Assembly: GCA_946557105.1 (NCBI GenBank)
Contig: CAMNSZ010000001.1
Span: 237,405 to 301,404 of the forward strand
Length of the DNA: 64,000 nucleotides
Direction of reading: 5' to 3'
Source of the DNA: an uncultured Lachnospiraceae bacterium
GTDB taxonomy: Bacteria > Bacillota > Clostridia > Lachnospirales > Lachnospiraceae
The translations under genes and the position numbers were made by a program. The notes under the pieces were generated by a model. The model was given only the letters and a program-made list of their open reading frames with translations, did no database searches and was not told where the DNA came from. This document shows positions 1 through 48,069 of this stretch, piece by piece. The stretch's first letter is position 1. Every line of letters begins with the position of its first letter.

Positions 1-254
1 AATGCATCATGCTTCTCCGCAGTAATTCCGGTGAGGGGTTGGAACCAATGAGTATAATGAGTAGCTCCGTTTTCCACAGCCCAATCCTTCATGGCCTTGG
101 CCACAACATCAGCGGTTGCCAAAGACAGCTCTCCGCCCTGATCCATAATTTTCTTCACTTCCTTATACACATTCTTCGGCAGCCTTTCCTTCATCTTTCC
201 CAAAGTAAAAACCTTACTCGCAAAAATCTCTTCTACATTTAGGACATCACTCAT
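1..254 (-). CDS. glnN: Type III glutamine synthetase, second tandem copy (N-terminal part only)
   Basis: This minus-strand reading frame starts at an ATG at 254 and runs off the left edge after 84 codons, so only the N-terminus is present. Read by eye, 78 of 84 residues match the N-terminus of the complete type III glutamine synthetase immediately upstream (401..2512). The differences are conservative (D/E, N/K, S/G, K/R twice, I/V). A GGGAGGAT-type ribosome binding site precedes the ATG. Glutamine synthetase makes glutamine from glutamate, ammonia and ATP. The gene is a tandem paralogue with its own promoter and leader hairpin (see 355..383 and 293..326). The ORF track shows only a plus-strand shadow here. 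Whether the copy is full length cannot be judged from this window. Confidence 0.9.
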   Translation of the reverse strand, partial: MSDVLNVEEIFASKVFTLGKMKERLPKNVYKEVKKIMDQGGELSLATADVVAKAMKDWAVENGATHYTHWFQPLTGITAEKHDA

Positions 255-292: not shown

Positions 293-326
293 AAAAAAGG
301 CGTTACACTCCCTGTGTAAACGCCTT
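293..326 (-). terminator. Intrinsic terminator or attenuator in the leader of the second glutamine synthetase gene
   Basis: On the minus strand the segment folds as AAGGCGTT(T)ACAC, a short AGGGA loop, then GTGTAACGCCTT, followed by a run of T. It lies about 75 nt after the stop of the upstream glutamine synthetase and about 40 nt before the ATG of the downstream copy. It could simply end the first transcript. Because a promoter can be read just upstream of it (355..383), it may instead act as an attenuator in the leader of the second gene. Confidence 0.8.
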
Positions 327-354
327 CGTTTTCATTGTTTCTTTATGATTTTTT

Positions 355-45182: not shown

Positions 45183-46931
45183 TTATTCCACATCCTGTAA
45201 AGCGTCGAAATCCTCCTCGCCTGTACGGACCTTAATCACCTTATCCACATTGTAGACAAATATCTTACCGTCCCCGATGTGCCCGGTGTAAAGCGCTTTC
45301 TTCGCGGCTTCAATAACCGCTTGCACGGGAATCTTGCTGACTACCACTTCCACCTTAACCTTGGGCAGCAGGGTTGCATCCAATTCAACGCCACGATACA
45401 TCTCGCCGGCGCCCTTCTGGATACCGCAGCCCATAACCTGAGTTACCGTCATTCCGGTTACCCCCAAATCGTTCATAGCCTTCTTCAACTGCTCATATCT
45501 GGCAAGCTTTGCAATGACTGCCACTTTATACATACCCGTAGAGGCGGCCGCCGGAGCCTCCATTACCTTTACCGCTGCTTCCTTCTGAGCCTTAGAAGCC
45601 ATCTCATAGTCCTCAACGCCAAGATTTGTATTTTCATTGACCTCCATTGTCATGGTATTGGAAATATCCATAATGCTGAAGCCCGCATAAGCGGAGGTAA
45701 GTCCATGCTCGCAGGAATCCAGACCTACAATCTCTTCTTCCTCCGTAACCCGAAGTCCGACGGTTGCCTTAATTATCAGAAAGGCAATAGTAATCGTTAC
45801 GGCGGTCCACGCCGCAACCGCTCCGAATCCCAGAAACTGTAATCCCAGCTGCTTTAATCCGCCGCCATAGAAAAGCCCTACAACGCTGTCGTTTCCGGGC
45901 GCCGATGTTGTGGCAAATAAACCGACTGCAATAGTACCCCAAATACCGTTTAAGCAGTGAACGGCAACTGCTCCCACGGGGTCGTCAATATGTAACTTAT
46001 AATCTAAGAACCAGACGCCAAATACTACTAAAAATCCCGCAACCGCTCCAATAATCAATGCTCCTGTCACATCGGTTACATCGCAGGGAGCCGTGATTGC
46101 CACCAGACCTGCAAGGGAAGCGTTCAGACACATGGAAACATCCGGCTTTCCGTATTTAATCCATGTAAAAACCATACATACTACGGTGGCAATTGCAGGG
46201 GCAATCGTTGTGGTAACAAATACGGAACCAAGCTGCTCTACACTGGTACAGGCCGCACCGTTAAACCCATACCAACCCAGCCAAAGAATAAATACGCCAA
46301 GACAGCCGATAGGAAGATTATGTCCGGGAAAAGCATTTACCTTTGTAACCCTTCCGTTCTTATCCTTTACAAACTTACCGATGCGGGGCCCAAGAATCTT
46401 TGCGCCGATAATTGCGGAAATACCACCCACCATATGAATCGCGCAGGAGCCCGCAAAATCATGGAAGCCAAGCTGCGCAAGCCAGCCGCCGCCCCATATC
46501 CAATGCGCTTCAATGGGATAAATCAACGCCGAAATAATTCCCGAATAAATACAATAGGATAAAAATTTCGTTCTTTCAGCCATGGCGCCGGAAACAATTG
46601 TAGCCGTCGTTGCACAAAATACCAGATTAAATACAAAGTTTGACCAGTCAAAGCTTTCATATGCCGTAAATATGTCAAACCCGGGCTTACCAATCAGCCC
46701 CGCCACATCTTCACCCAACAGCAGCCCAAAACCTATTAAAATGAACACTACCGTACCGATGCAGAAATCCATCAGATTTTTCATCAGAATGTTACCTGCA
46801 TTCTTTGCTCTGGTGAAACCCGTCTCTACCATTGCGAAGCCCGCCTGCATCCAGAATACCAGCGCTGCACCTATCAAAAACCAGACGCCAAACACTTCGC
46901 CGTTTACCATGCTTAAAATTTCCTCTGTCAT
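45183..46931 (-). CDS. amt: Ammonium transporter fused to a C-terminal PII (GlnK) domain
   Basis: 582 residues from ATG 46931, which follows a strong AAGGAGGG; the 49 extra residues in the track lie in the structured leader. Residues 1-420 form an 11-helix Amt channel (FWMQAGFAMVETGFTRAKN, VFILWLGWYGFNGAA, HIDDPVGAVAVHCLNGIWG). A linker follows, then from residue 467 a full PII domain (MYKVAVIAKLARYEQLKKAM ... IGDGKIFVYNVDKVIKVRTGEED). The T-loop keeps the Tyr of EMYRG, but the position of the uridylylated Tyr51 is Leu (GVELDAT). Normally GlnK is a separate protein that plugs Amt when nitrogen is plentiful; here the regulator is tethered. Confidence 0.96.
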   Translation of the reverse strand: MTEEILSMVNGEVFGVWFLIGAALVFWMQAGFAMVETGFTRAKNAGNILMKNLMDFCIGTVVFILIGFGLLLGEDVAGLIGKPGFDIFTAYESFDWSNFVFNLVFCATTATIVSGAMAERTKFLSYCIYSGIISALIYPIEAHWIWGGGWLAQLGFHDFAGSCAIHMVGGISAIIGAKILGPRIGKFVKDKNGRVTKVNAFPGHNLPIGCLGVFILWLGWYGFNGAACTSVEQLGSVFVTTTIAPAIATVVCMVFTWIKYGKPDVSMCLNASLAGLVAITAPCDVTDVTGALIIGAVAGFLVVFGVWFLDYKLHIDDPVGAVAVHCLNGIWGTIAVGLFATTSAPGNDSVVGLFYGGGLKQLGLQFLGFGAVAAWTAVTITIAFLIIKATVGLRVTEEEEIVGLDSCEHGLTSAYAGFSIMDISNTMTMEVNENTNLGVEDYEMASKAQKEAAVKVMEAPAAASTGMYKVAVIAKLARYEQLKKAMNDLGVTGMTVTQVMGCGIQKGAGEMYRGVELDATLLPKVKVEVVVSKIPVQAVIEAAKKALYTGHIGDGKIFVYNVDKVIKVRTGEEDFDALQDVE

Positions 46932-46974
46932 AATATTTCCCTCCTTATTACGGCTGCACGCTCCTGCGTTTTGC

Positions 46975-47027
46975 CAAAAAATATGCGATGCACGGGTTGC
47001 CGATATCGAAGCCCCATTGCATCGCAT
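46975..47027 (-). terminator. Second terminator-like hairpin in amt leader
   Basis: ATGCGATGCA and TGCATCGCAT pair perfectly (10 bp) across a 25-nt loop that has inner GGG/CCC pairing, followed on the minus strand by ATTTTTTGG. It lies about 45 nt before the ATG. Confidence 0.65.
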
Positions 47028-47063
47028 TCTTTTTCTCCGGTCACGCGCGTCTCGACTCACCGG

Positions 47064-47102
47064 AAAAATAAAAGGCACTACGGATTACTCCATAGCGCCT
47101 TT
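47064..47102 (-). terminator. First terminator-like hairpin in amt leader
   Basis: AAAGGCGCTATGGA and TCCGTAGTGCCTTT pair over 14 positions including two G-U pairs, with a four-base loop, followed by TATTTTT on the minus strand. It begins within about 10 nt of the predicted transcription start. Confidence 0.8.
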
Positions 47103-47116
47103 GCTTTATGTATGAG

Positions 47117-47145
47117 AGTATAACACTTAGTTTTTTATATGTCAA
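47117..47145 (-). promoter_or_regulatory. Strong sigma-A promoter of amt-PII
   Basis: TTGACA, a 17-bp spacer and TATACT on the minus strand, near consensus. The first leader hairpin lies immediately downstream. Confidence 0.9.
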
Positions 47146-47205
47146 CAATTAATTTGGCATACCAAAATGCACAGCATTTCACCCCTGCCAGACAAGACCG
47201 GCTAA

Positions 47206-48069
47206 TTAATTAGCCGATAAATTGCAAAGAAGGCGCAAATACTTGACATGGTTTAACATAATATATTCCTCTTTGTAAAAGCCCAGCTTTTCACAGACCG
47301 CACCGGACGCCTTATTTTCCGGCGCCACCAGCGCCTGAACCCGCTCAAAGCCCAAATTTTTACGACCATATTTCAATATGGCGCCGCAGACCTCGGTGGC
47401 AAGACCCTGACCCTGCCATGGAACGCCGATAAGGAACCCCAGCTCCGGCTCTTCATAGCCCTCACGAGGAAACAGTCCGGCGCGACCGATTATCTCTTTG
47501 GTATCCTTTTTCAGAACCGTCCAGACCCCAAAACCATAAAAACCATATTGCTTTTCAATATAATCCCTCACATACTGTTTTTCTTCCTCTATATCAGGGT
47601 ATAGGTCCTCCATATATCTTGTCATGCGCGAATCGTCGTATATTTTGTAAAAAGCATCTACATCCTCCGGTACGGTCTCACGCACCAGACAACGCCTTGT
47701 CTCCAAAATATCCCACGGAATTTTGTAATAACGTCGATACACCTGCTCCAAATATTCTTCATCCATGTCCTCGGGATTCTCCAAAGCATACTGCAGCCCC
47801 GTAAAATCCTCTTCCCTATTTCCATCATGAAGATAGATAATCACTGCTTCTTTCGCCTGTGTCAGCTGCATTGCACACCTTACGCAGTCCGTTACCCACA
47901 GCACGCCTTCTCCGCCGTTCGCTCTCACAAGCTCTTTGGTTGACATATTTTTCTCTTCCGCAAAAATAAAGGCGACGCCTTTACTCTCAAGCCGTTTCTT
48001 CAGCAATGTATAACTGTCCTTTTGTTCTTTTTGTCCAAGCACTGCCATTACCCTTTTCAAATAATACAT
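47206..48069 (-). CDS. GNAT-family N-acetyltransferase with N-terminal HAD-like segment
   Basis: 287 residues. The C-terminal half is a GNAT domain of the RimJ/RimL type (TRRCLVRETVPEDVDAFYKIY, GFLIGVPWQGQGLATEV with the acetyl-CoA loop, VAPENKASGAVCEKLGF). The first 110 residues (KGVAFIFAEEKNMSTKELVRAN, VLWVTDCVRCAMQLTQ) resemble a partial HAD-like phosphatase domain found in front of some Clostridial acetyltransferases; the catalytic DxD motif is not present. The acceptor is unknown. Confidence 0.85.
   Translation of the reverse strand: MYYLKRVMAVLGQKEQKDSYTLLKKRLESKGVAFIFAEEKNMSTKELVRANGGEGVLWVTDCVRCAMQLTQAKEAVIIYLHDGNREEDFTGLQYALENPEDMDEEYLEQVYRRYYKIPWDILETRRCLVRETVPEDVDAFYKIYDDSRMTRYMEDLYPDIEEEKQYVRDYIEKQYGFYGFGVWTVLKKDTKEIIGRAGLFPREGYEEPELGFLIGVPWQGQGLATEVCGAILKYGRKNLGFERVQALVAPENKASGAVCEKLGFYKEEYIMLNHVKYLRLLCNLSAN

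Follow-up and report, generated by a model that had tools for sequence, protein, structure and literature searches.

A probable two-step ANTAR antitermination switch in the leader of a Lachnospiraceae ammonium transporter gene

The leader of the ammonium transporter gene amt-PII very probably works as a two-step ANTAR antitermination switch, in which an ANTAR protein would bind a hexaloop in the nascent RNA when nitrogen is short and thereby block termination. The gene lies in a 64,000-nt stretch of DNA (the window) from an Acetatifactor-like Lachnospiraceae, as judged by the named relatives to which its ANTAR protein is closest. We observed the anatomy of this leader, its conservation, compensatory changes in its hairpins H1 and P1, a regulon of genes preceded by the same element, and an association with ANTAR genes. 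The elements of the leader and the gene that follows it are listed below in window coordinates.

47117-47145, minus strand: amt-PII promoter, sigma-70, TTGACA-17-TATACT with an extended -10 (TG), from a consensus scan (11/12 matches)
47064-47102, minus strand: H1, first intrinsic terminator of the amt-PII leader, 14-bp stem 47102-47071 and U-run 47073-47064
47094-47105, minus strand: P1, hexaloop mini-hairpin AGC[AAAGGC]GCU, loop 47102-47097, putative antiterminator of H1
47037-47063, minus strand: H2, hairpin CCGG..ACGCGCGUG..CCGG of the amt-PII leader, extended arms 47068-47030
46976-47027, minus strand: H3, second intrinsic terminator, stem 47027-46983 and U-run 46981-46976
47007-47024, minus strand: P2, hexaloop mini-hairpin CGAUGC[AAUGGG]GCUUCG, loop 47018-47013, putative antiterminator of H3
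46939-46946, minus strand: Shine-Dalgarno sequence AAGGAGGG of amt-PII, from the sequence
45183-46931, minus strand: amt-PII fusion, 582 aa, ammonium transporter with a C-terminal P-II domain (Pfam PF00909, E 7e-120; PF00543, E 1e-22)

From the start of the promoter to the ATG (46931) the minus strand spans 214 nt, and H1 begins 15 nt behind the -10 box, hence roughly 8 nt into the RNA. An initial annotation of this DNA had described a near-consensus promoter followed by a 14-bp hairpin with a T-run, then a stem that would consume this T-run, and a second hairpin with a T-run before the ATG. All of these were found: in the extended arms of H2 the U-run of H1 (47068-47064) pairs with AAAAA (47034-47030), and H3, the stem of which has a base of 9 bp, is followed 3' of its U-run by the Shine-Dalgarno sequence and the ATG. 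For the 185-nt leader the folding energy is -75.5 kcal/mol, versus -49.3 +/- 4.1 kcal/mol for shuffled sequences (z -6.4), with none of 200 shuffles folding as low. The annotation had also seen no match to ANTAR leaders, a statement that we had to revise, as both terminators overlap mini-hairpins with an A1/G4 hexaloop, the defining features of ANTAR targets. The hexaloops sit in the 5' arms of H1 and H3; we looked for them in the apical loops of these hairpins as well (GUAA in H1) and they were absent from both. Positions 47102-47094 are common to P1 and the 5' arm of H1, and positions 47024-47007 to P2 and the 5' arm of H3, so that within each pair the folds are mutually exclusive. The mini-hairpins are weak when unbound, at -2.8 kcal/mol for P1 and -3.4 kcal/mol for P2, as compared with -21.5 kcal/mol for H1 and -23.3 kcal/mol for H3, and a protein partner would therefore be needed for P1 and P2 to prevail. 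H1 may also halt read-through from an upstream acetyltransferase-like gene. A perfect palindrome, CGGCTAATTAATTAGCCG (47199-47216), overlaps the stop codon of that gene and has no U-run.

We based the case for the switch on comparison between genomes, because a hexaloop within a terminator is not significant in one genome alone: two cases were found in the window, and a random 64-kb sequence would be expected to hold 1.35. When 138 congeneric genomes were searched at the DNA level, 51 amt leaders were recovered; in these, conservation was mainly confined to two blocks, one formed by the promoter and H1 and the other by H3. Both units were present in 44 of the 51 leaders and the first unit only, with H3 absent, in seven. 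The distance between the loops of the two units, 84 nt in the leader studied here, ranged from 45 to 217 nt, which leaves no constant aptamer and argues against a compact one. The same promoter was found at the same distance in nearly all of the leaders. What is invariant in H1 is not the tip of its stem but the first part of its 5' arm, AGC(A/G)AAGGCGCU, three bases of which lie outside the terminator stem.

The pairing itself has also been maintained. In 61 aligned units, 98.1% of the cells of H1 were paired, with 65 double-change cells versus 16 in shuffles. The three-pair stem of P1 was 100% paired in the same alignment, and two of the three pairs have changed on both sides; the P1 pairs covary even though columns 10-12 fall outside the terminator stem. 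The P1 loop AAAGGC stays constant while the stem varies (GGC/GCC or AACGC/GCGUU), and some P1 and P2 loops start with G instead of A. For H3, 99.2% of cells were paired, with 10 double-change cells. For P2, pairing was found in 81.7% of cells versus at most 52% when the hairpin was slid along the alignment, and G4 was invariant (40 sequences). Covariation, which the initial annotation had proposed looking for in orthologous leaders, was therefore seen in H1 and P1, whereas P2 has almost no compensatory changes and draws its support from conservation and the invariance of G4.

The same annotation had read the hairpins as competing, with a stem 3' of H1 that would use up its T-run. We rejected H2 as an antiterminator, since it is completed only after the decision at H1 has been made and is not general: H2, with a GCGC-containing loop, a CCGG stem and arms reaching into the U-run of H1 and an A-run, was found in about a dozen of the congeneric amt leaders. 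The alternative to each terminator is instead the mini-hairpin within its own 5' arm. A hairpin related to H2, with the loop AAUGCGCAA, was seen in the leaders of genes for type III glutamine synthetase (GSIII).

We sought to determine how widely the units occur, using covariance models of the H1 unit (R1) and of P2/H3 (R2) and a sample of 396 well-assembled Lachnospiraceae genomes from 280 genera. R1 matched in 225 of these genomes and 173 of the genera, as well as in 53 of 196 genomes sampled over the class, some of them Lachnospiraceae. The hexaloop was present in 85 of 87 distinct R1 hits from other genera, with G4 in 85/85 and A1 in 79/85. The outer (third) pair of P1 in these genera was AU in 69, GU in 6, CG in 6 and GC in 4; this pair was outside the structure of the R1 model, although the model contained the consensus sequence. 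R2, in contrast to R1, gave only two good hits in other genera, and the P2/H3 form thus looks largely genus-specific. The genes downstream of the unit, named by sequence and clustering and not by family search, were most commonly GSIII (33), followed by amt (18), asnB/purF-type amidotransferases (15), gltB (6), carA (3) and pyrG (2), with purA, dapF and dapL among the genes seen once. Tandem units were found in front of a GSIII gene and in front of asnB, two units in each case. In another Clostridia family, three successive hexaloop-terminators in one leader (locus L232, about 195-410) precede an ABC-transporter ATPase-like gene.

The window itself contains a second unit, in front of a GSIII gene.

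293-330, minus strand: second unit of the window, in the GSIII leader, AAC[GAAGGC]GUU 330-319, terminator 326-297 and U-run 298-293
1-254, minus strand: start of the type III glutamine synthetase gene, which runs off the window, from the similarity of its translation to the GSIII behind the unit elsewhere

The R1 match to this second unit (E 0.07) is weak alone, but the unit was found independently by the scan of the window and its anatomy is like that of the H1 unit. A further R1 hit in this genome, at C2:148628, was set aside as it has no hexaloop.

The genome carries one ANTAR gene, encoding a REC-like and an ANTAR domain in 184 aa (PF03861, E 2.6e-16). It lies at L039:7210-7764, immediately after glnA and ahead of dapF and dapL (L039:5641-9933), and the glnA leader of this genome carries GGAC[AAAGGU]GUUC and a terminator. 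The gene order, glnA-ANTAR-dapF or dapL, is also found at other loci across the family, and in most of the 30 that were inspected the ANTAR gene is behind glnA. Units of the H1 type before glnA-ANTAR, GSIII and amt suggest a nitrogen regulon. ANTAR genes were found in 361 of the 396 family genomes, usually once, and the unit in 221 of these 361 genomes versus 4 of the 35 without a detected ANTAR gene (p 8e-9, a value that is optimistic since related genomes are not independent). Furthermore, in genomes with both positions listed, 19 of 53 units were no more than 25 kb from the ANTAR gene versus 0.9 expected, a proximity that is partly a product of the clustering of nitrogen genes.

The phospho-acceptor aspartate is missing from the receiver in 26 of 31 ANTAR proteins (loci L110-L139 and this genome), including that of this genome, as if the receiver were degenerate. 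Since the receiver-like part has no phosphorylatable aspartate, the signal may come through another protein, with glutamine synthetase and PII as candidates, and not through phosphorylation. In the ANTAR domain, K149 and E160 are invariant, residue 164 is aromatic in 29/31 and M172 is present in 28/31. Residue 164, which in EutV is the Tyr164 that stacks on G4, is His in the protein of this genome, and the EutV RNA contacts R142, K143, K147, R168 and R175 are replaced in it.

In the mechanism we propose, transcription would start almost at the P1 hexaloop hairpin. By default, the nascent RNA would fold into H1 and transcription would stop, while polymerases that escaped would be halted at H3. 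Under nitrogen shortage, an ANTAR protein would grip the P1 hexaloop and keep hold of the 5' arm of H1, allowing polymerase to pass; the most likely candidate is the glnA-linked protein, the only one of its kind in this genome. Likewise at P2, H3 would be blocked and amt-PII would be made. Expression of glnA-ANTAR itself and of GSIII would be under the control of the same kind of unit. Binding, direction of control and signal sensing are modelled here on EutV, NasR and AmiR. We also put forward, at slightly below an even chance, a broader reading in which this is a regulon of the whole family, one 5'-terminal hexaloop suffices, stacked units sharpen the switch, and the glnA-linked ANTAR protein with its degenerate receiver is signalled by glutamine synthetase or PII and not by a kinase.

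The layout had initially been described as typical of attenuation or a riboswitch. The attenuator stood up, being conserved with compensatory changes, whereas the riboswitch did not. A metabolite riboswitch, in which the leader from promoter to ATG would bind a nitrogen metabolite and pick between stems, is quite unlikely. Tandem terminators and strong folding would fit a riboswitch-type expression platform, but with units 45-217 nt apart and H3 absent from 7 of 51 leaders there is no constant aptamer, and what does stay invariant is a hexaloop hairpin of 12 nt. Moreover, the unit tracks ANTAR genes. The annotation had seen no match to known glutamine or purine leaders. There was no Rfam 15 gathering-level hit in the window, and in the leader the Rfam 15 covariance models, run at gathering and permissive thresholds, gave only sub-threshold hits and no family match. 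Very unlikely, in our estimate, are passive hairpins that act with no regulator, either as two constitutive terminators keeping amt low or as a 5' stabiliser. H1 and H3 are indeed strong, and chance alone would place a hexaloop within a terminator about once in 64 kb; yet passive hairpins would not account for an invariant AAAGGC loop, for a covarying P1 pair outside the terminator stem, or for the nitrogen regulon and its ANTAR association. It is barely credible that H1 is a DNA operator for a repressor, despite being a near-perfect inverted repeat behind the promoter and near the start site, since G-U pairs are common in it and its upper stem varies freely but in a compensatory manner, which indicates that RNA pairing is kept rather than DNA sequence; a U-run also follows it.

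P1 and P2 could instead form one canonical site for an ANTAR dimer if the intervening RNA were looped out. The target described in the literature is a dual hexaloop, and two hexaloops are present in 44 of 51 amt leaders. However, the hexaloops of EutV sites are 5-12 nt apart, a 14-nt linker impairs induction and a 20-nt extension abolishes it (PMC3369931; PMC8934654), as opposed to the 84 nt here and 45-217 nt elsewhere. In addition, the decision at H1 precedes the existence of P2, and there is only one hexaloop in seven amt leaders and in most units of other genes. We therefore regard a single looped-out site as unlikely. Nor was an upstream partner hexaloop found in any of 47 family leaders. 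The hexaloop lies about 14 nt behind the -10 box; in the genus it starts at a distance of 11-16 nt, and in 43 of 44 promoters of other genera at 12-21 nt. The RNA 5' of P1 is too short for a partner. In the two-step switch, each hexaloop would be a site of its own. This is plausible since, in the structure reported in 2022 (Walshe et al. 2022, PMC8934654), a EutV dimer is in contact with only a single hexaloop at any time, and by the single-hexaloop definition of that year the anatomy of this leader makes it a putative binding site.

Canonical pairs do exist near such genes. In one genome of another Clostridia family, near-identical copies of a dual hexaloop, UAUAC[GACGAC]GUAUA and AAAGC[AAAGGC]GCUUU, are followed by a terminator (L233 about 235-270; L234 about 180-215). 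The second loop is as in P1, and the L234 copy precedes an amt gene. Given this canonical pair before amt, the single-hexaloop form may have been derived from the double one by loss of the first hairpin.

ANTAR leaders before genes for P-II, an ammonium transporter, and glutamate and glutamine synthases were already predicted in 2012 (PMC3369931). Those hits were obtained with a dual-hairpin model, and Lachnospiraceae are not named in the main text (Ramesh et al. 2012, PMC3369931). The new part is the single-hexaloop, 5'-terminal, tandem layout; we found no report of this design, or of a Lachnospiraceae regulon, in the open-access literature, with subscription papers outside the search. If the proposed switch is true, it provides a concrete mechanism for the control of ammonium uptake and glutamine metabolism in Lachnospiraceae, dominant gut bacteria. 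It would also test a live question about ANTAR proteins, namely whether one hexaloop is enough, as the crystal structure suggested and the eut spacing experiments seemed to deny.

The ANTAR target is defined by an A1/G4 hexaloop on a 3-bp stem that overlaps the 5' arm of a terminator, with the eut consensus AGCAANGRRGCUY (Ramesh et al. 2012, PMC3369931). Both hexaloops of the amt-PII leader, AAAGGC and AAUGGG, have A1 and G4 on stems of at least 3 bp. The leader shares the hexaloop, the short stem and the overlap with the terminator 5' arm with the Enterococcus faecalis eut system, and the eut 13-mer resembles AGCAAAGGCGCUA here. Unlike in eut, there is one hexaloop per terminator, located at the extreme 5' terminus of the transcript, and the units are repeated with variable spacing; unlike EutV, the regulator is encoded beside glnA and its receiver has no acceptor aspartate. 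The NasR/nasF and AmiR/amiE systems likewise combine an ANTAR protein, a hexaloop and a terminator, and AmiR has His at the EutV Tyr164 position, as does the protein studied here, but each is a single locus rather than a regulon, with known inducers and sensors and with dual hexaloops reported. The ANTAR leaders predicted in 2012 (Ramesh et al. 2012, PMC3369931), for example in Desulfotomaculum acetoxidans, where six units hold 13 attenuators, resemble the present ones in the kind of regulon, in the target genes and in having several attenuators per transcription unit.
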